DNA of 64,000 bases from Thiobacillus sp. GTDB taxonomy: Bacteria > Pseudomonadota > Gammaproteobacteria > Burkholderiales > Thiobacillaceae. Under the pieces are notes generated by a model. The model ran no database searches. It was not told where the DNA came from and saw nothing but the letters and a program-made list of their open reading frames with translations. The position numbers and the translations under genes are program-made. This document shows positions 1-9,234 of the stretch, piece by piece (position 1 is the first letter of the stretch; every line of letters begins with the position of its first letter). The stretch spans positions 1-64,000 of the forward strand of contig JAIBFA010000036.1 of the NCBI GenBank assembly GCA_019459325.1. Direction: 5' to 3'.

Positions 1-708
1 GCGACTGGCAAGCCGAGCGGTCACATTCCGACGACCGCTTCTTGCGATACGTGCCACAGAACCAGTGCCTGGACACCTGCCACCTTCAGCCACACCGGCG
101 TCGCCCCGGGCACCTGCTCGACCTGCCACAACGGCACTGCGGCAACGGGTAAACCGACCACGCACATCCCGACCACACAGGCGTGCGACACGTGCCACAG
201 AACCAGCGCCTGGACGCCTGCCACCTTCAGCCACACCGGCGTCGCCCCGGGCACCTGCTTGACCTGTCATAACGGCACGACCGCGACCGGCAAGCCAACG
301 AGCCATATTCCCACCACAAAATCCTGCGACACCTGCCACAAGACCAGTGCCTGGACGCCGGCCACCTTCAGTCACACCGGCGTGGCCCCCGGCACCTGCT
401 CGACTTGCCACAACGGAGCCACGGCGACTGGCAAGCCGAGCGGTCACATTCCGACGACCGCTTCTTGCGATACGTGCCACAGAACCAGTGCCTGGACACC
501 TGCCACCTTCAGCCACACCGGCGTCGCCCCGGGCACCTGCTTGACCTGTCATAACGGCACGACCGCGACCGGCAAGCCGGGAGGACATATCCCGACTACC
601 GCCACCTGCGATTCGTGCCATAGGACAACGGTGCCATGGACCAGCCCGACCATGAATCACGCCGCGGTTGTCAGCGCCACCTGCGAGTCATGCCATGGCG
701 GGGCTTAC
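1..708 (+). repeat. Tandem 141-bp coding repeat of the multiheme cytochrome
   Basis: The period is 141 bp (47 codons, two hemes per unit). Copies run 1-141, 142-282, 283-423 and 424-564, then a degenerate copy from 565 to about 708. The first ~120 bases of copies 1 and 4 are identical or nearly so. The end of copy 2 running into copy 3 matches the end of copy 4 running into copy 5. This mosaic pattern indicates unequal crossing-over or gene conversion, and more copies may lie to the left. Confidence 0.93.
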
Positions 709-996
709 ACGGCGGCGGGGGCTCAGGCCAAACCGATCAATCACATTCCGACTGCTCTGGTGGGGGGCAAAGACTGCAAGGCCTGTCACACCAGTACTGC
801 CAGCTGGTCGGCGAAGATGGACCACAACAATATTCTGACTGGGTGCAAGACATGTCATGCCAGCGGAACGAGTTACCTGGGCAGCATGGAGAAGAAGAGT
901 GTGACACATGAATCAAGAACGGCCACCGACTGCTCCCAGTCGGGCTGCCACAGACCTTTGGGCAACAAGGGCGTGGCCTACGTTAAATGGGATTAA
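1..996 (+). CDS. Multiheme c-type cytochrome, 3' part (5' end outside window)
   Basis: The reading frame is open from base 1 to the TAA at 994-996, so only the C-terminal 331 residues are present. They contain twelve CxxCH heme-attachment motifs and one terminal CX4CH (C-SQSG-CH). Residues 1-188 are four near-perfect 47-residue repeats, each with CDTCH, a conserved FSH and CxTCH, plus conserved GHIPTT and GKP segments. A fifth, divergent copy and a non-repeated tail follow. Such proteins are periplasmic or outer-membrane electron carriers that need heme ligation by the Ccm system, which is encoded just downstream. Extra histidines in each repeat could be distal heme ligands (inference). Total heme number, signal peptide and N-terminal domain are unknown because the start is missing. 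The donor and acceptor cannot be named from sequence alone. Confidence 0.9.
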   Translation, partial: ATGKPSGHIPTTASCDTCHRTSAWTPATFSHTGVAPGTCSTCHNGTAATGKPTTHIPTTQACDTCHRTSAWTPATFSHTGVAPGTCLTCHNGTTATGKPTSHIPTTKSCDTCHKTSAWTPATFSHTGVAPGTCSTCHNGATATGKPSGHIPTTASCDTCHRTSAWTPATFSHTGVAPGTCLTCHNGTTATGKPGGHIPTTATCDSCHRTTVPWTSPTMNHAAVVSATCESCHGGAYTAAGAQAKPINHIPTALVGGKDCKACHTSTASWSAKMDHNNILTGCKTCHASGTSYLGSMEKKSVTHESRTATDCSQSGCHRPLGNKGVAYVKWD

Positions 997-1030
997 CAGG
1001 CGGCATTGCTGTTGGAACGTGCTGCCCGGC

Positions 1031-1044
1031 GGACAAGCTTGTCC
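1031..1044. other. Perfect 14-bp palindrome in the cytochrome-barrel gap
   Basis: GGACAAGCTTGTCC is self-complementary and is flanked by CCCGG and CCGGG, so the transcript could form a hairpin between the two genes. No T-run follows on the plus strand, so it is not a standard terminator. It may be a processing or partial-termination site that sets cytochrome:barrel expression (inference). Confidence 0.4.
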
Positions 1045-1081
1045 CGGGTAAGTTTTTGGCAACTCATTGACGGGGTAGGCA

Positions 1082-3520
1082 ATGTTTTTTACCACCAGGA
1101 ACACGCTGGTCGGGGCGTTGGTCGCGTGCAGCGTGGCGGCTCTCAGCCCGCAATCGGCAACGGCCCAGATTCTGGAAGAAATCCAGGTTCAGCCCGACAA
1201 TTTCGAGAATGTCGTGCGGCTGCAATTCAATGCCCGGATCCAGTTCTTGCGTGCTGTCCCGATCGGGAAGAGCAACACCATCGTGGTCTATTTCCGGCTC
1301 CTTCAGGGCGACGAGCGGATCGAGATCAAGGCGATTGAAAAGCTCAAGTCGAAAGCTTTTGAGCAACTTCCTGCGGTCAGCGCAACCCTTTCCCCCCAGG
1401 CCGCCCAGGTCAAGAAGCTGACCCTGCAGATCGGGAAAGGGGGGCAGCTTGCCAATATCAAGGTGCGCGCTGGGTTGGATGGCCGTAGCGTGGACCTCAT
1501 TTTTGGCGAGACGGCAAAACTGTATCAACTCGCTCCGGACAGCAAGCGCTATGCTCTGACACTGCAGAGTTCGACCTCCGCGAGCGAATTGAGTGGCAAA
1601 GTCGTTCCCCGGGAAGTTCAGGACTATGATGTCTTCACCTCCCAGCAGACGCAGGAAGGCAAGGTTCTGTATGAACTGAACCTGGGCTACTTTTCCACAC
1701 GCGAAGAGGCGGAACAGGTCCGTGCCAAGCTGCTCGCTCAATTCCCGGAATCCGTGATAACCGATCTGGCCAAGCGCAGGAAAAGCATGCTCAAGGCCGC
1801 CTCCGCCTCCGCCAAGGCAACGCCCGAAGCCCGGCAGGCGCAGGCCATGGCTCCGCTGCCCGAGGTGGAAGACCAGGCGGCCTTGCTCATGCCCAAGGCG
1901 CAGGAAGCCCTCAATGCCGGGAACTACGAACTGGCCACCAACACCTTCAACCAGATTTTGCTATTGCCTCCAAACAAATATTCGCAGGAAGCCCAGGAAT
2001 TGATTGGCGTGGCTCGGGAACGCAATGGCGAACTGGCCAAGGCCAAGGCCGAATATGAGCTGTATCTGAAACTGTTTCCGGATGGAGCGGGGGTTGATCG
2101 GGTGCGCAAGCAACTTGCCCAGCTGAAAGTGCCTGCTCCTGGCGCCCGCAAGGCAAGACCCCGGGACGAGACTGTCATCAAAACCGTTTCGGGCAGTTTT
2201 TCGCAGTTTTATTACGGCGGCAAAAGTCAGACACAGACGGCTTTCAATACCCCCGTCGCACCGGGAACGTCGACACTGTCGACCAGGAGCCAGTCCGAGT
2301 TGAAAAGCCAACTTGACCTTACGGGACGCTATCGGAATGCCGATGCGGATCAGAAGCTGGTCTTCCGGGATGACGATATCCGTAGATTCGTAGATGATCG
2401 CCCGGATCGGAATCGCGTTCTTTCCGCCTACTATGAATACAAAGGCTACCAGAACGGATTCAGCGCCAGAGTGGGGCGCCAGACCCCGTCATCCGCCGGC
2501 GTGTTCGGCCGGTTCGATGGTGCGCTGTTGGGTTACGAATTTGTACCTAATTGGCGGGCCAATATTGTTGCGGGTATGCCGGTGGATTTCCCGACCCTGG
2601 CAACGGATCGGACATTCTGGGGGGTGAGCCTGGATGCGGACCAGTTGACCGAGCGTTTGCGCGGCAAGACCTATTACATGGAGCAGACTGCAGACGGCAT
2701 TCTGGATCGGCGCGCCGTGGGCCTGGAACTGGGGTGGCACCTTGCGCGCGGTTCCGTCAGCACGCAACTGGATTACGACTTGAGCTATGACGTTCTCAAT
2801 ATTGCCGTACTGCAGGGCGACTGGCAGACCGAAGGGGGAAGCAGTTTCAACTTTCTGCTGGATCGCCGCCGCACCCCCCCGCTCGCCACTTCCATTGCCT
2901 TGTATAACGTCGCGGTCGGGGCCATATCGCCCCTTCCCGTCAGCATCAAGCAATTGCTTGCGACTGAATCGGAAGACCAGATACGCACTTGGGCTTTGGA
3001 CAGCAGCGCCGTCGTGGAACAAGTTTCCGTCGGGTTCCTGAAGCCATTGAACGAAACCTGGCAGGTAGGCGGGGATTTCAATCTGTCCAATACCGGCGCA
3101 TTGCCCGGACAGACCCTGGACGATGGAACGGTTATCGCCCCCACGCCTGCCACCGGCAATATTTACAGGTATTCCCTGCGGGCCATCGGTTCCAGCCTGC
3201 TGACAACGAACGATGCCCACGTGTTTTCCGTGTCCCTGAACCAGGGCGAAACCTTCCATGGTGAACAGTTTGTCTACAACAATACGACCCGGTTGGGTCG
3301 CTGGACGATTGAGCCTTCGCTGAAATACTACCAACAGCAAAACGACCCGGACACCGATCTGGTTCAGTGGGCGCCCGAGATTCGCCTGTCCTACCAGTGG
3401 AAAGACAACCTGTCGCTGGAGGCCGATTACATTTATGAACATATAGTGACACGCAGCCCAACTAGCCAGGATACTGACCAGGGTCATTTCTTCTATGTAG
3501 GTTACCGTTGGGATATTTGA
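1082..3520 (+). CDS. Outer-membrane beta-barrel protein with SPOR/TPR-like periplasmic region
   Basis: The protein has 812 residues. Residues 1-28 are a Sec signal peptide ending in SATA-Q. Residues ~29-155 form a beta-rich domain that resembles AMIN-type periplasmic domains. Around 195-225 a stretch reads YELNLGYFSTREEAEQVRAK, which looks like a SPOR motif. Residues ~265-345 are TPR-like helices. From ~375 to the end the pattern alternates as in a transmembrane beta-barrel and closes with YVGYRWDI. The gene starts 85 bp after a multiheme cytochrome and 25 bp before ccmA, all on the same strand. I infer that the barrel could house or anchor the cytochrome as an electron conduit, or act as a porin for that system. 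I recognise no named family over the full length. The domain calls are by eye, and a secretion or polysaccharide-export barrel remains possible. Confidence 0.75.
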   Translation: MFFTTRNTLVGALVACSVAALSPQSATAQILEEIQVQPDNFENVVRLQFNARIQFLRAVPIGKSNTIVVYFRLLQGDERIEIKAIEKLKSKAFEQLPAVSATLSPQAAQVKKLTLQIGKGGQLANIKVRAGLDGRSVDLIFGETAKLYQLAPDSKRYALTLQSSTSASELSGKVVPREVQDYDVFTSQQTQEGKVLYELNLGYFSTREEAEQVRAKLLAQFPESVITDLAKRRKSMLKAASASAKATPEARQAQAMAPLPEVEDQAALLMPKAQEALNAGNYELATNTFNQILLLPPNKYSQEAQELIGVARERNGELAKAKAEYELYLKLFPDGAGVDRVRKQLAQLKVPAPGARKARPRDETVIKTVSGSFSQFYYGGKSQTQTAFNTPVAPGTSTLSTRSQSELKSQLDLTGRYRNADADQKLVFRDDDIRRFVDDRPDRNRVLSAYYEYKGYQNGFSARVGRQTPSSAGVFGRFDGALLGYEFVPNWRANIVAGMPVDFPTLATDRTFWGVSLDADQLTERLRGKTYYMEQTADGILDRRAVGLELGWHLARGSVSTQLDYDLSYDVLNIAVLQGDWQTEGGSSFNFLLDRRRTPPLATSIALYNVAVGAISPLPVSIKQLLATESEDQIRTWALDSSAVVEQVSVGFLKPLNETWQVGGDFNLSNTGALPGQTLDDGTVIAPTPATGNIYRYSLRAIGSSLLTTNDAHVFSVSLNQGETFHGEQFVYNNTTRLGRWTIEPSLKYYQQQNDPDTDLVQWAPEIRLSYQWKDNLSLEADYIYEHIVTRSPTSQDTDQGHFFYVGYRWDI

Positions 3521-3545
3521 ACGAAATAAACCGCAAAGGCCGCTC

Positions 3546-4166
3546 ATGCTGGAAGTAAGCAGCCTCGGGTGCCTGCGTGGCGAGCGCCGTCTGTTTGCCG
3601 GCGTGTCCTTCAGCCTCAGGCCCGGCGGACTGATCTGGATACAAGGCGGTAACGGCAGTGGCAAGACCACCTTGCTGCGTACCTTGTGCGGGCTGACCCA
3701 CGCCATGGCGGGCGAAGTGCGCTGGAGTGGCACGCCCATCCAATTGCTGGGTGAGGAGTATCGGCGCGAGCTGACCTATATCGGCCATGCCAATGGACTG
3801 AAGGAAGACCTCAGCGCCCAGGAGAATCTGCTTGTCGCCGCGCATCTTGTCGGTCAGCCGGTGAGCCGCGCGGAGGTGGCCGGGGCCTTGCAAGGTAGTG
3901 GCCTGGCGGGTCGCGAGCACCTGGCGGTTAAATTCCTGTCCCAAGGACAGCGCCGCCGCGTCACGCTGGCCCGGTTGCGGCTCATGCCTCCACGCACGCT
4001 TTGGCTGCTGGACGAACCCTTCAACGCACTGGATACCCATGCGGTTGCCGGCATGCGGAAAATCATGGAAAACCACCTGTCTCAGGGAGGCATGATTGCC
4101 CTGACCACCCACCAGGATGTGGCGATCCAGGCGGCCGATGTCCAAACTCTGCGGCTGGATGCCTGA
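3546..4166 (+). CDS. ccmA: Heme exporter ATP-binding protein CcmA
   Basis: CcmA is the ATPase of the CcmABCD complex, which releases holo-CcmE from CcmC during cytochrome c maturation. The 206-residue protein has Walker A GGNGSGKT (34-41), an ABC signature LSQGQRRR, Walker B LWLLDEP and a switch histidine in TTHQD. The length is normal for the family. It is the first gene of a complete ccm operon; ccmB starts 13 bp after its stop. The gene follows the barrel gene by only 25 bp, so it may be read through from the cytochrome/barrel unit. Confidence 0.96.
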   Translation: MLEVSSLGCLRGERRLFAGVSFSLRPGGLIWIQGGNGSGKTTLLRTLCGLTHAMAGEVRWSGTPIQLLGEEYRRELTYIGHANGLKEDLSAQENLLVAAHLVGQPVSRAEVAGALQGSGLAGREHLAVKFLSQGQRRRVTLARLRLMPPRTLWLLDEPFNALDTHAVAGMRKIMENHLSQGGMIALTTHQDVAIQAADVQTLRLDA

Positions 4167-4179
4167 GGACGCGGGCGAG

Positions 4180-4848
4180 ATGATGCAAACCTTGCGTTAC
4201 GTGGTTTTCCGCGATGTGCTGCTCGCCATGAGGCGGCGCGCCGATGTGGCGACCACGCTGTTTTTTTTCGTCATCGTCGCCAGCCTGTTCCCGCTGGGCG
4301 TGGGGCCGGAGCCCAAGCTGCTGCGCGCCATGGCGCCGGGCATCCTGTGGGTGGCGGCGCTACTGGCCTCCATGCTGTCTTTGGGACGGCTGTTTGCCGA
4401 GGACTATGCCGATGGCAGCCTGGAACAACTGGTGCTGGTGCCGGAACCGCTTGCCCTGGTGGTGATCGGCAAGGTTGTGGCGCACTGGCTGGTGTCGGGT
4501 TTGCCGCTGGTGTTGATTTCGCCGGTGATCGCACTGCAATTCGATCTGCCGCGCGACGCGATAGTCACCCTGCTACTGGCGCTGCTGCTGGGCACCCCGT
4601 TGCTGAGCCTGATCGGCGCGATCGGCGCGGCGCTCACGGTTGGGGTGCGCGGCGGCGGGGTGCTGATCTCGCTGCTGGTGCTGCCCTTGTATGTGCCTGT
4701 GCTGATTTTTGGTGCAGGCGCGGTGGATGCCAGCGCCATGGGCATGGATGCCAGTGGCCACCTGTCCATACTCGGTGCACTGCTGCTGCTGGGAATGGTG
4801 CTGGCGCCGTGGGCGACTGCGGCCGCACTGCGGATATCGCTGGAATAA
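4180..4848 (+). CDS. ccmB: Heme exporter membrane protein CcmB
   Basis: CcmB is the membrane subunit that pairs with CcmA. The 222-residue protein begins MMQTLRYVVFRDVLLAMRRR and has about six hydrophobic helices, as expected. I chose the first ATG of the ATGATG pair at 4180. An in-frame ATG at 4117 lies inside ccmA and would add unrelated residues. The conserved SLGRLFAEDYADG-type segment typical of CcmB is present near residue 68. Confidence 0.94.
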   Translation: MMQTLRYVVFRDVLLAMRRRADVATTLFFFVIVASLFPLGVGPEPKLLRAMAPGILWVAALLASMLSLGRLFAEDYADGSLEQLVLVPEPLALVVIGKVVAHWLVSGLPLVLISPVIALQFDLPRDAIVTLLLALLLGTPLLSLIGAIGAALTVGVRGGGVLISLLVLPLYVPVLIFGAGAVDASAMGMDASGHLSILGALLLLGMVLAPWATAAALRISLE

Positions 4849-4873
4849 TGATCACCTTGGAATCTTCTGCCGC

Positions 4874-5614
4874 ATGAAATTGAACTGGTTCAAATACGCG
4901 TCCCCCGTCACGTTTTATCCGCTGGCGGGCAAGCTGATTCCTTGGTTCGCGCTGGCTGCCGCCATCCTCACGGTCGCGGGCCTGTATATCAGTTTTTTTG
5001 TCGCCCCCACGGATTTCCAGCAGGGCGAGTCGTACCGCATCATTTTCATCCATGTGCCCGCGGCCTGGATGTCGATGTTCATCTATATCGTGATGGCGGG
5101 TTGGGCTGCGGCCGGGCTGATCTTCAACACCCGCCTGTCGTCGATGATGGCCAGCGCGCTGGCGCCGACCGGCGCGCTGTTCACCTTCATCGCCCTGTGG
5201 ACCGGCGCGCTCTGGGGCAAGCCCACCTGGGGCGCCTGGTGGGTATGGGACGCCCGGCTGACCTCCGAACTGATTCTGCTGTTCCTGTATATGGGGTTTC
5301 TGGCGCTGCACGCCGCGATCGACGACCCGCGTCGTGCCGACCGTGCCAGCGCGGTGCTGGCTCTGGTCGGGGTGGTCAATGTGCCGATCATTTATTTTTC
5401 GGTCAAATGGTGGAACACCCTGCATCAGGGTGCCTCGGTCAGCATGACCATGGCGCCCAAGATGGCTGCCACCATGCTGCTGGGCATGCTCATCATGGCG
5501 CTGGCCTGCTGGATGTACAGCATCGCCGCGGCGTTGATGCGTTTGCGCTGCATCATCCTTGAACGCGAACAGCAGGCCGAGTGGGTCGCCAATCTGGCAA
5601 AGGAACCAACATGA
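4874..5614 (+). CDS. ccmC: Heme handling protein CcmC
   Basis: CcmC presents periplasmic heme to CcmE and belongs to the heme-handling protein superfamily. The 246-residue protein has six predicted helices and the tryptophan-rich signature TWGAWWVWDARLTSE. Heme-ligand histidines flank it (FIHVPAAW before; WWNTLHQGAS after). The start at 4874 (MKLNWFKYASP) matches family N-termini, and upstream in-frame codons lie in ccmB. Its stop overlaps the ccmD start in an ATGA. Confidence 0.96.
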   Translation: MKLNWFKYASPVTFYPLAGKLIPWFALAAAILTVAGLYISFFVAPTDFQQGESYRIIFIHVPAAWMSMFIYIVMAGWAAAGLIFNTRLSSMMASALAPTGALFTFIALWTGALWGKPTWGAWWVWDARLTSELILLFLYMGFLALHAAIDDPRRADRASAVLALVGVVNVPIIYFSVKWWNTLHQGASVSMTMAPKMAATMLLGMLIMALACWMYSIAAALMRLRCIILEREQQAEWVANLAKEPT

Positions 5615-5805
5615 TCTGGAAGAGCCTGGATGACTTCATCGCCATGGGGGGGTACGGCTTTTATGTCTGGGGGTCTTACCTGGTCACGGCCGCGCTTATC
5701 GGAGCCGAAATTTTGATGTTGCGCGCGCGTCGGCGTGCCGTCGAAAAAGCCCGCCACGTCCAAATAATCCTGTCCGAGCAGACGAAACATGAAACCACGA
5801 CATAA
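5611..5805 (+). CDS. ccmD: Heme exporter small membrane protein CcmD
   Basis: This is a 64-residue single-helix protein ([20 protein letters not shown]...), with one transmembrane segment at ~20-40 and a basic [11 protein letters not shown] tail. It stabilises CcmC-CcmE and is needed to release CcmE. It starts within the ccmC stop (ATGA at 5611-5614), and its 3' end overlaps ccmE by 17 bp. Confidence 0.93.
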
Positions 5806-6262
5806 ACGCATGGCGCTGATTGCCGCCGGTCTGACTGCCGTCGGCCTCGCCGCCGCCCTGGTGCTGAATGCCTTTCGCAGCAATCTGGTGTTCTTCTTCA
5901 CGCCCAGCCAGATCGCGGCCCACGAGGCCCCCACGGGCCGCGGTCTGCGAATTGGTGGACTGGTGGTGGCCGGTAGCGTGAAGCGAGAAGGCGTCACGGT
6001 GCATTTCACCGTGACCGATACCGCCCAGTCCATCCCCGTGGTGTACACCGGCATCCTGCCCGACCTGTTCAAGGAAGGAAAAGGCGTGGTCGCCCAGGGC
6101 GAACTGGACGCCAATGGCGTGTTCCAGGCCAGTGAAGTCCTGGCCAAGCACGACGAGAACTACATGCCGCCCGAGGCGGCCGAAGCGCTCCAGCGGGCTC
6201 AGGCCTCGAGCGACAGCACCGGCAAGACGCTGGTCATGGATACGGAAGGCACACCTCAATGA
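5789..6262 (+). CDS. ccmE: Periplasmic heme chaperone CcmE
   Basis: CcmE binds heme covalently and hands it to CcmF. The 157-residue protein has an N-terminal membrane anchor (residues ~8-28) and an OB-fold domain. The signature LAKHDENY is present, with H121 as the covalent heme ligand and Y125 as the axial ligand. The normal His form indicates classical System I rather than the Cys variant. The start lies inside ccmD; the stop overlaps ccmF (ATGA at 6259-6262). Confidence 0.97.
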
Positions 6263-8241
6263 TTCCTGAAATCGGGCACTTCGCCCTCATCGTCGCGCTC
6301 CTGATCGCCACGGCACTGACAGTTTTTCCCATCGTCGGCGCACAGCGCGGCATCGCGTCCTGGATGGCGATGGCGCGGCCCGCCGCGCAGGGGCTGTTCG
6401 TGTTCGTTACCCTCGCCATGGTCTGCCTGGCGTATTCCTTTGCCGTCAACGATTTCTCCGTGCTGAACGTCGCCAGCAATTCCAACTCCATGCTGCCGCT
6501 GCATTACCGGTTGGCCGCGGTGTGGGGTAGCCATGAAGGCTCCGTGCTGTTGTGGGTGTTCATGCTCACGCTCTGGATGGTCGCGGTGTCGTTGTTCAGC
6601 CGCCATCTGCCGCGTGAAATGGTGGCGCGCATTCTGGGCGTGATGGGTTTCATCAGCGTCGGCTTCCTGCTGTTCATGCTGCTGACCTCCAACCCCTTCG
6701 ATCGTCTGCTGCCCGCCGCGCCCGATGGCCGCGATCTCAATCCGCTGCTGCAGGACCCCGGTATGGTGTTCCATCCACCCATACTCTACATGGGCTATGT
6801 GGGGTTTTCCGTGGCCTTTGCCTTTGCCATCGCCGCCTTGCTGGGCGGCAATCTGGACGCGGCCTGGGCGCGCTGGTCGCGCCCCTGGACGACTGTGGCC
6901 TGGGTGTTTCTCACCCTGGGCATCGCACTGGGCAGTTGGTGGGCCTATTACGAATTGGGCTGGGGCGGCTGGTGGTTCTGGGACCCGGTGGAAAATGCTT
7001 CCTTCATGCCCTGGCTGGTCGGCACCGCATTGATGCACTCGCTTGCCGTCACCGAAAAGCGCGGCAGCTTCAAGAACTGGACCGTGCTGCTCGCCATCGT
7101 CGCCTTTTCCCTGTCGCTCCTGGGCACCTTCCTCGTGCGTTCCGGCGTGCTGACTTCGGTCCATGCCTTCGCCACCGATCCCAAGCGCGGCATCTTCATC
7201 CTGATGTTTCTGGCGATCGTGACCGGCGGCTCGCTCCTGCTGTTCGCCTGGCGCGCGGGCAGGGTGGGCCTGGGGGGGCGTTTCGACCTGGTGTCGCGCG
7301 AATCCATGCTGCTCGCCAACAATGTCATTCTGGTCGTGGCCGCCGGCTCGGTGCTGCTGGGCACCTTGTATCCTCTGGTGCTCGACGCGCTGGGGCTGGG
7401 CAAGATTTCAGTCGGCCCGCCTTACTTCGATAACGTGTTCGCCCCGCTCATGGCGCCCGCCATTTTTCTCATGGGCGTCGGCCCGCTGACCCGCTGGAAA
7501 TCGGCCAGCCTGCCGGAACTGGCCCTGCGGCTGCGTTGGGCGTTCGGCGTCAGTCTGGTCAGTGCCTTGCTGCTCCCCCTCGCGCTGGGTGAGTGGTCGC
7601 CCATGATCAGCTTTGGCCTGTTGCTCGCCCTGTGGGTGTTCACCTCCACAGCGCTCAACCTGTGGAACCGGGTCCAACCCACCGCGAGCGCCTCGCTGCG
7701 GCAGCGCTTCGGCAGCCAGTCGCGAAGCTATTACGGCATGCTGCTGGCGCATCTCGGCGTCGGTGTGTTTATCGTCGGCGTGACGATGGTCAAGGGCTAC
7801 CAGACCGAGAAAGACGTACGAATGGAAGTCGGCGACACGGTCAGCATCGGCGCCTATCAGTTTGTATTCAAGGGCGTGACCGAGGTGCCCGGACCCAATT
7901 ACATGGCATCGCGTGGCAGCGTCGACGTCCTGAAGCATGGCAGGCTGGAGCGAACCCTGGCGCCGGAAAAACGCATCTATTTCGCCACGCAGATGCCGAT
8001 GACCGAGGCGGCCATCAGCACCGGGTTTACCCGCGACCTGTATGTTTCGCTGGGCGAACCGGTCGATAACGGTGCCTGGGTGGTGCGCGTGTATGTCAAA
8101 CCCTTCGTCGACTGGATCTGGGGCGGTTGCCTGGTCATGGCGCTGGGCGGCGTGCTGGCGCTGTCCGACCGTCGTTACCGCCTGACCCGGCGGCGCGCGC
8201 AGACCGCGCCCGCTGCCGCTCTGGTTGCGGAGGCGGCATGA
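6259..8241 (+). CDS. ccmF: Cytochrome c heme lyase subunit CcmF
   Basis: CcmF is the large membrane subunit of the heme lyase that joins heme to apocytochrome CxxCH. At 660 residues with many transmembrane helices it has the usual length. The WWD domain is seen as [20 protein letters not shown] near residues 233-252, with flanking histidines ([24 protein letters not shown]). Overlapping ATGA junctions on both sides indicate translational coupling with ccmE and ccmG. Confidence 0.97.
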
Positions 8242-8768
8242 AAGCCTGGTATTTGATTCCCCTGGCGATCTTCATCGCCATGCTGGGATTTTTGGGCGTG
8301 GGCCTCAAGCTCGATCCCCGCGAGGTGCCCTCGCCCTTGATCGACAAGCCCGCGCCGGTGTTCCGCCTGCAAACGCTGGATTCGCCTTCCCGGCTGATGT
8401 CTTCCGAGGAAATGCGCGGCCAGGTCTGGCTGCTCAATGTGTGGGCATCGTGGTGCGCCGGCTGCCGTGAGGAGCATCCGATCCTGGTCGAATTCGCCAA
8501 AACCCGCACCGTGCCGATTTATGGGCTGGATTACAAGGATCAGCCCGACGATGCGCGCCGCTGGCTGGCCAATTTCGGCAATCCCTACGTGGCCAGCGTG
8601 TCCGACCCGGACGGCCGGACGGGGATCGAGTTCGGGGTGTACGGCGTGCCGGAAACTTTCGTCATCGACAAGGCCGGGATCATCCGCCACAAGCAGATCG
8701 GCCCCATCACACCCGAGGTGCTACGCGACACGATTCTTCCCTTGGTGAAAAAACTCAATGCTGCTTAA
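8238..8768 (+). CDS. ccmG: Thiol:disulfide interchange protein CcmG (DsbE)
   Basis: CcmG is a membrane-anchored, periplasmic thioredoxin-fold reductant of apocytochrome or CcmH cysteines. The 176-residue protein has an N-terminal anchor (~4-22), active site W72-CAGC-76 and a VPET cis-proline loop. CAGC replaces the more common CPTC/CxxC spacer residues but keeps both cysteines. The start at 8238 overlaps the ccmF stop; the 3' end overlaps ccmH by 11 bp. Confidence 0.95.
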   Translation: MKAWYLIPLAIFIAMLGFLGVGLKLDPREVPSPLIDKPAPVFRLQTLDSPSRLMSSEEMRGQVWLLNVWASWCAGCREEHPILVEFAKTRTVPIYGLDYKDQPDDARRWLANFGNPYVASVSDPDGRTGIEFGVYGVPETFVIDKAGIIRHKQIGPITPEVLRDTILPLVKKLNAA

Positions 8769-9234
8769 ACCTTTACTTGCCCTCCTGCTGGCGGCGGCGC
8801 TGCATCCTGCTTGGGCCAAAGAGGCCGCCCCGGTTGCCGCCGACCCCGTGGCCGAAGCAAGGCTGATGAAGCTCTCCAGCGAACTGCGCTGCCTGGTGTG
8901 CCAAAACCAGACCATCGCCGACTCCAACGCCGAACTGGCAGTCGACCTGCGCAACGAAATTCGCGAAAAAATCCAGACGGGCATGAGCGATGCCGAAATC
9001 AAGGACTTCATGGTCGCCCGCTACGGCGACTTTGTGCTGTATCGCCCGCCCGTCAAGAACACGACACTGGTGCTCTGGGTCGGCCCCTTCCTGCTGCTGG
9101 CGGTGGGCGGCGGCATTCTGGTTTTCAATCTGAGACGGCGTCGGCAGCATGCCGCCGAACCGGAATTGAGCCGCGACGAACAAGCACTGGCGGAATCCCT
9201 GCTGCACACCGACCCAACCAAGGAAACAACATGA
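8758..9234 (+). CDS. ccmH: Cytochrome c maturation protein CcmH
   Basis: CcmH is a membrane-anchored thiol oxidoreductase that holds apocytochrome for heme ligation. The 158-residue protein has a signal peptide (~1-20), the LRCLVCQNQ motif with C45 and C48, and one C-terminal transmembrane helix followed by a basic RRRRQ. It is the short CcmH form; the TPR part is encoded separately as ccmI, coupled by an ATGA at 9231-9234. Confidence 0.96.
   Translation: MLLKPLLALLLAAALHPAWAKEAAPVAADPVAEARLMKLSSELRCLVCQNQTIADSNAELAVDLRNEIREKIQTGMSDAEIKDFMVARYGDFVLYRPPVKNTTLVLWVGPFLLLAVGGGILVFNLRRRRQHAAEPELSRDEQALAESLLHTDPTKETT

Follow-up and report, generated by a model that had tools for sequence, protein, structure and literature searches.

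The gene cluster at the left edge of the window

The window analysed here is a stretch of 64,000 nucleotides of a Thiobacillus genome (G000), corresponding to bases 1-64000 of contig C112, and its left edge is occupied by the end of a very large multiheme cytochrome gene, a gene for a porin-like protein and the beginning of a putative cytochrome c maturation (ccm) operon (Table 1). Judging from gene content and motifs, the first two are the right-hand half of a gene cluster of the type PCC3, and not a new type of conduit. A reading made from the sequence alone had proposed a possible new electron conduit at this place; a conduit is still the best reading, and its novelty was given up because the cluster matches PCC3 in the features tested.

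Base 1 of the window is also base 1 of the contig, and the open reading frame (ORF) of the cytochrome leaves the contig there. The 331 residues that it encodes in the window contain 12 CxxCH motifs and one CX4CH motif (CSQSGCH), with spacings that mostly alternate between 23 and 24. The underlying tandem array comprises 4.4 copies with 79% matches, and this repetitiveness is the likely reason for the break in the assembly. The sequence-only reading had described a repeat-built cytochrome with these heme motifs, followed by an 812-residue protein with a signal-like N-terminus and, 25 bp later, by the ccm operon; ORFs, motif counts and the array agree with the first point, the ORF and an inspection of its N-terminus with the second, and the coordinates with the third, given that the porin stop ends at 3520 and the ATG of the presumed ccmA lies at 3546.

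That reading also called for an extension to the left, up to the start of the cytochrome, and this start was found in the same genome. A homologue of the 24-heme cytochrome of related clusters is located on contig C100 (13,470 bp), where it is followed by the 5' end of the giant cytochrome gene, cut by the contig end. As there are 21 CxxCH motifs on C100 and 13 heme motifs in the window, the giant cytochrome would have at least 34 hemes, counted over two contigs that are not joined. A complete homologue (L023:6385-9912) has 1175 residues with 46 CxxCH and one CX4CH, that is, 25.0 residues per heme. At locus L023 the whole cluster lies on one contig, in the order iron-sulphur (Fe-S)/FAD protein, inner-membrane protein (IMP; 3541-4449), 24-heme cytochrome, giant cytochrome, porin and ccmA. 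The IMP of L023 has five hydrophobic segments, the motif WX3HX13H at residues 95 and 277, and SGIIG at residue 136; the IMP encoded on C100 carries the same WX3HX13H and SGXXG-type motifs.

Table 1. Features of the putative PCC3 cluster in the window and on contig C100 of the same genome
Feature	Location	Strand	Basis
Giant second multiheme cytochrome of the PCC3 cluster, 3' end (presumed extracellular)	1..996	+	open frame leaving left edge
Tandem array, 141-bp units, two hemes per unit	1..620	+	repeat analysis of DNA
PCC3 porin, 812 aa, with signal-like N-terminus, SPOR, TPR and barrel-like C-terminus	1082..3520	+	ORF, profiles, alignment
SPOR domain, residues 181-225	1622..1756	+	Pfam; DamX SPOR by profile, E 1.2e-6
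TPR region, residues 266-346	1877..2119	+	TPR models below cut-off; CpoB by profile, E 6.8e-6
C-terminal region, residues 365-812, putative outer-membrane beta-barrel, ending GYRWDI	2174..3520	+	alignment of relatives
ORF assigned to ccmA	3546..4166	+	25 bp after porin stop
ORFs of the remaining ccm operon	4180..9234	+	collinear in relatives by tblastn
Divergent Fe-S/FAD protein (fifth gene)	G000:C100 7491-8777	-	ORF, homology
IMP	G000:C100 9016-9921	+	ORF, homology, motifs
24-heme cytochrome	G000:C100, ending 11863	+	24 CxxCH
Giant cytochrome, 5' end	G000:C100:11860-13470	+	21 CxxCH; cut by contig end

Correspondence with PCC3

In the text of He et al. (2017; PMC5566968), PCC3 comprises a porin, two kinds of cytochrome, extracellular and periplasmic, that are very rich in hemes, and an IMP of about 300 residues with five transmembrane helices (TM), of which TM4 carries SGXXG and TM3 and TM5 carry WX3HX13H. 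Its cytochromes have 22-39 residues per heme, the periplasmic one has a median of 21 hemes, the hosts named there are Sideroxydans, Leptothrix and other Proteobacteria, and Slit_0867 and Slit_1449 are examples of its named porins. The Thiobacillus cluster has corresponding constituents: a gene for a putative porin that adjoins a multiheme cytochrome gene, a cytochrome with repeats and many hemes (at least 34 in this genome and 47 in L023, where the density falls within the PCC3 range), a second cytochrome of presumed periplasmic type with 24 CxxCH motifs, and an IMP with the two WX3HX13H motifs and SGXXG. It differs in its Thiobacillus host, in the adjoining ccm operon, in the SPOR and TPR parts of the porin, which the text of He et al. 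leaves unmentioned, and in a fifth gene for an Fe-S/FAD/NAD(P) protein that the same text does not name. No report of PCC3 in Thiobacillus was found in the literature searched, which covered main texts and listings (supplements may list the genus); the word PCC3 is absent from PMC11475568. A 2026 paper on a Methylobacter anode (PMC13322032), considered as a further case, describes in its available part a cluster of the MtrA/MtrB type instead.

The arrangement of the genes is conserved. A search with the IMP in a class-level sample was positive in 34 of 274 genomes, the Thiobacillus genome included, at a limit of 1e-10. Stretches of at most 20 kb, beginning about 4 kb upstream of the IMP, were taken around all 36 matches in the other genomes, and the full order IMP-cytochrome-cytochrome-porin was present in 22 of them, which supports the claim that the pair of cytochrome and porin is conserved in synteny; in another 11 the contig ends too early (L062, L064, L071, L072, L077, L079, L081, L082, L087, L089 and L094). 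The porins of these clusters are homologous to one another. Two WX3HX13H motifs together with [SAG]GxxG occur in 40 of the 41 IMP ORFs and are missing only from L095, where the IMP is partial.

Comparable rows also exist further afield. Plasmid pEMTOL02 of Emticicia oligotrophica, a member of the Bacteroidota, carries a co-directional PCC3-like row (NC_018749.1; L126 8058-20642) in the order ResB/CcsA, IMP, fifth gene, two multiheme cytochromes and a 538-residue protein. The IMP is motif-bearing and 25% identical, the fifth gene is 46% identical and the cytochromes have 23 and 40 CxxCH, whereas the host belongs to another phylum and ResB/CcsA stands in the place of Ccm. The 538-residue protein gave no match to the PCC3 porin profiles. 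A search of 72,556 plasmid records at 1e-10 gave no IMP match, a limit that also misses the Emticicia IMP present among them. PCC4 resembles the present cluster in an IMP with the same motifs and in the presence of other redox-active proteins, and differs, as described by He et al. (PMC5566968), in having cytochromes with 4, 5 or 10 hemes and none that is extracellular.

The number of hemes

The heme motifs of the first cytochrome were counted in 38 of the 41 IMP loci; none is seen in L094 and L095, and that of L087 is cut. A cytochrome was considered uncut when its ORF stops short of the stretch end. In all 38 cases the heme number of the first cytochrome is 18, 21, 24 or 27 (1, 26, 10 and 1 cases, respectively), and the numbers given for Gallionellaceae in the portion of PMC10734462 consulted (21, 24 and 27) agree with this. 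In the Thiobacillus protein the motifs recur with a 16-18-32 spacing, that is, as triheme modules. The Emticicia homologue, with 23 CxxCH, breaks the pattern of multiples of three. The second cytochrome ranges from 12 to 144 hemes in 29 uncut cases. Taken together, these numbers suggest that the first cytochrome could span the periplasm with a nearly fixed length and that the second could be an outer piece free to grow, as far as counts from related sequences allow.

The upper extreme belongs to L069 (6477-18737; G272:C17), whose second cytochrome has 144 CX2-4CH motifs (133 of them CxxCH) in an open frame of 4086 residues. Only 30 of its 12201 60-mers are repeated, and it is not an obvious artefact of assembly; the largest number known to He et al. 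in 2017, according to their text, was 85 (PMC5566968). In the cluster at L028 8892-13474, cytochromes lie on both sides of the porin, one with 12 hemes before it and one with 13 hemes after it.

The porin-like protein

The sequence-only reading had recognised AMIN-, SPOR- and TPR-like parts in the porin. SPOR passes the Pfam cut-off (22.5 bits against 21), and TPR models match below their own cut-offs only and are supported by the relatives, while AMIN has no Pfam match in this protein or among 23 aligned porins. These comprise the window porin and 22 of 26 listed ones (ORFs of at least 600 residues that reach the end of the profile), with L025, L067 and L096 omitted as near-duplicates and L074 for its poor start. 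At E 0.01, TPR_16 was found in 16 of the 23 and SPOR in 13. Both parts are therefore common among PCC3 porins, without being detected in all of them, and are not peculiar to the window porin. The N-terminal domain, the part called AMIN-like in the sequence-only reading, has no match among Pfam families. A separate small ORF that matches this domain precedes the porin in L061, L063, L073, L074, L082, L085 and L096; the porins of L063 and L085 match this part of the profile as well. Full-length relatives of the window porin are present in four of 35 genomes of the same genus (G005, G016, G025 and G032); those in G058 and G059 are more distant.

The signal-like N-terminus was called by inspection, and topology by inspection together with a hydropathy window. 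The C-terminal region presumably forms an outer-membrane barrel, as suggested by its terminal aromatic signature, its gene context and the Pfam matches of single relatives, other than the window porin, to outer-membrane barrel families. A profile search of solved structures with the porin returned relatives of SPOR, TPR and designed helices, and no outer-membrane barrel.

A fifth gene associated with the inner-membrane protein

The IMP is adjoined, usually in divergent orientation, by a gene whose product combines a membrane helix, two [4Fe-4S] clusters and an FAD/NAD(P) domain. An N-terminal hydrophobic helix was recognised by a simple hydropathy test in 29 of 32 homologues of at least 400 residues. 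Among 35 ORFs, self-written motifs detected two 4Fe-4S sites in 33, the FAD motif in 29 and the NAD(P) motif in 31; the ORFs poorest in these motifs are a fragment in L093 and the two pieces into which the L076 copy is split. YpdA and thioredoxin-reductase-like ferredoxin-NADP reductases come closest to the flavin domain, and none of the 29 ORFs with the FAD motif has a CxxC after it.

The two genes occur together. In the class-level sample without the Thiobacillus genome, both are present in 32 genomes, only the IMP in one, only the fifth gene in two (G157 and G237) and neither in 238 (Fisher p 3.5e-38, a guide rather than an exact value given the relatedness of the genomes). The limit for the fifth gene (1e-60) was stricter than that for the IMP, and the lists and coordinates were compiled by hand. 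The genome with only an IMP is G250, yet a fifth-gene match of 107 residues lies beside that IMP. Both genes were found in the same four of 349 genomes of a phylum-level sample (the Thiobacillus genome, G145, which also belongs to the class sample, and, as the only new ones, G563 and G466), and in the same seven of 56 genomes of the genus, the present one included, where they are divergent and close in all seven.

With respect to the 36 IMPs from the other genomes of the class sample, the fifth gene is divergent within 1.5 kb in 25 cases, on the same contig within 11 kb in five, on another contig in five and missing in one, and in G563 it lies downstream of the porin and in the same orientation. 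Since this linkage has been kept through rearrangements of gene order, it suggests that the fifth gene and the IMP share a function, and the gene is put forward here as a candidate for a missing PCC3 subunit. In the texts of PMC5566968, PMC10734462, PMC12442390, PMC8788666, PMC12016527 and PMC13386937, as far as covered, it is not tied to PCC3 (supplements may list it); the words ferredoxin, FAD and pyridine are absent from the text of He et al. (PMC5566968), whose model ends at the quinone pool, and the part of PMC10734462 consulted gives Rnf and ferredoxin clusters for iron oxidisers without a tie to PCC3.

A possible path for electrons and its alternatives

In many genomes PCC3 figures as a possible iron oxidase, and a near-constant partner of the NAD(P)-type flavoprotein kind leads to a testable claim on the pool of electrons to which it connects; the fifth gene also provides a further marker for PCC3 annotation. 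It is probable that the cluster encodes a wire across the envelope that connects the cell surface, through heme b, with NAD(P)H and flavin in the cytosol. On the cytosolic side, NAD(P)H (or ferredoxin) would exchange electrons with the FAD and the Fe-S clusters of the fifth protein, and these in turn with two b hemes of the IMP; from there the path would lead to the 24-heme periplasmic wire, to the cytochrome held in the porin and to an extracellular partner. With SPOR and TPR the porin would be anchored to peptidoglycan and would offer the periplasmic wire a docking site, and the ccm operon would serve heme attachment. We infer the cytosolic side of the Fe-S/FAD protein, its transfer to heme b, the passage through the porin and the extracellular position. 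The entry would resemble that of NADPH oxidases and ferric reductases in its two membrane-embedded HX13H sites for heme b and in the cytosolic placement of NAD(P)H and flavin, and would differ in being split into separate proteins, with added Fe-S clusters and a flavin domain of the TrxR/YpdA type. The IMP of L023 has no Pfam match at E 0.1, the ferric reductase domain PF01794 included, and no NCBIfam match at E 0.01; the histidine spacing is all that it has in common with that domain.

The energetics of NAD(P)H and of the membrane potential favour outward flow. For this reason, and because both PCC3 clusters of ES-1 are reported, in the source as consulted, to have lower transcripts on Fe(II)-citrate than on thiosulfate, and 10 of 33 PCC3 hosts have no RuBisCO match (some of these genomes being incomplete), a net flow from NAD(P)H to the outside appears the more likely direction. 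An NAD(P)H-linked path, if correct, would change the direction and the energetics assumed for PCC3. A more specific version can be offered only tentatively: a five-part, quinone-bypassing line in which a membrane-anchored Fe-S/FAD/NAD(P) protein and a diheme-b IMP, as an entry like a split NADPH oxidase, feed a periplasmic wire of quantised length, mostly seven or eight triheme modules, and a surface wire extendable to about 144 hemes. Such a line, in some cases equipped with its own cytochrome c maturation operon, may discharge reductant outward rather than oxidise iron.

Several observations weigh against this proposal. No experimental electron transfer by any PCC3 was found in the literature consulted, where PCC3 has been called functionally unverified, and the extracellular placement of the giant cytochrome is a prediction given in the text of He et al. 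(PMC5566968). AlphaFold models of five sequences (the window porin and L023-L026) do not confirm a barrel, with a mean predicted local distance difference test score (pLDDT) of 35 for the whole porin and 30 for its C-terminal part; the best-modelled part, at about 70-79, is residues 261-300 of the TPR region. Three of the 36 class-sample loci depart from the usual order, namely L084, with four cytochromes and without a porin match, L093, with a single cytochrome, and L095, with a partial IMP and no cytochrome; fifth-gene matches in G093, G323 and G005 contain an in-frame TGA. A merely accessory role of the fifth gene would fit the co-occurrence too, as this does not require contact with the IMP. 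With regard to direction, inward flow is favoured by a mild enrichment of RuBisCO, with PF00016 matches (which include RuBisCO-like proteins) in 23 of 33 PCC3 hosts and 118 of 240 other genomes (p 0.04), a difference that fits uptake as well as export, and by a report on strain CL21, available in part, in which one PCC3 IMP is significantly up by the time of iron oxidation, contrary to an export-only role.

The last two points belong to the published model, proposed in the text of He et al. (PMC5566968), in which an extracellular donor such as Fe(II) supplies PCC3 with electrons that the IMP passes on to the quinone pool; the flavoprotein would then be an accessory. Its hosts do include iron oxidisers, and the rise of the CL21 IMP accompanies iron-oxidising ability. 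We consider this model rather doubtful, in view of the ES-1 transcripts, of the hosts without a RuBisCO match and of the magnetite proteome of ES-1, where PCC3 values, taken as percentiles, are reported in the portion consulted to reach at most 63.4, compared with more than 99 for Cyc2_1. A path that ends at quinones also leaves the nearly constant NAD(P)-type partner unexplained. It is still less likely that the wire is in fact a periplasmic or surface store of electrons, a capacitor, a role that PMC10734462 suggests in the part consulted and that the very variable heme number of the second cytochrome would suit: the porin and the IMP are kept in most clusters, and the near-fixed heme number of the first cytochrome fits a span, so that storage instead of passage seems quite improbable.

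Other alternatives concern the porin itself. TPR-barrel proteins such as Slam or PgaA export cargo, and the union of TPR and barrel in the window porin recalls their architecture; the protein might thus be a channel that brings the giant cytochrome to the surface instead of holding a cytochrome within it. Moreover, this giant cytochrome has no canonical lipobox by inspection, though there is a cysteine in its hydrophobic stretch. Such a role is nevertheless unlikely, as no Slam or exopolysaccharide-export family appears among the Pfam matches of the 23 porins at E 0.01, and the single TPR_Slam match, with E 0.13, lies in the barrel part of the window porin. As for conduits of the MtrAB/PioAB/MtoAB type, they share with the present cluster a porin beside a multiheme cytochrome, and the cytochrome repeats give DmsE-family scores, all below the cut-off. 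Their cytochrome is a decaheme, in contrast to the 24 and at least 34 hemes found here. The comparison with MtrB/PioB models that the sequence-only reading had recommended also speaks against them: the MtrB_PioB hidden Markov model misses the window porin and finds an MtrB-like gene elsewhere in the same genome, which makes membership in this group extremely improbable. That other gene, for a porin of the MtrB/PioB family (G000:C69:61-1647; L100, L101), indicates that the genome may have a second type of conduit.

Cytochrome c maturation genes beside the cluster

The ORF that follows the porin is taken to be ccmA, and those after it to be ccmB, ccmC, ccmE, ccmF, ccmG/dsbE and ccmH. No terminator-like site was listed in a scan of the DNA between the porin stop and ccmA. 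The sequence-only reading had considered that heme supply and conduit could be co-expressed, and the idea of heme supply gains support. In six of the seven members of the genus with an IMP, the operon comes after the porin, with CcmA 79-100% identical (the present genome included); ccm genes also flank PCC3 in G141, G147, G272 and, in another class, G466, and in Emticicia a ResB/CcsA gene stands at the head of the row. On the other side, 33 of the 36 class-sample stretches have no match to CcmB, CcmE, CcmF or the DsbE-like protein, within fetched stretches whose length means that distant ccm genes could be missed. The linkage of ccm and PCC3 thus appears to be recurrent and not general.

In the seventh IMP-positive member, G672, a CcmA with 46% identity lies on another contig, and the PCC3 contig ends early. 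Of the 49 IMP-negative members, four contain a CcmA that reaches E 1e-50 (47-49% identical), and in the other 45 none does. PCC3 and ccm may have been acquired together, or the PCC3-positive members of the genus may simply be one clade. A distinct type of ccm operon accompanies PCC3 within the genus (window 3546-4166 and L102-L112), with CcmA identities of 79-100% as against 47-49%.

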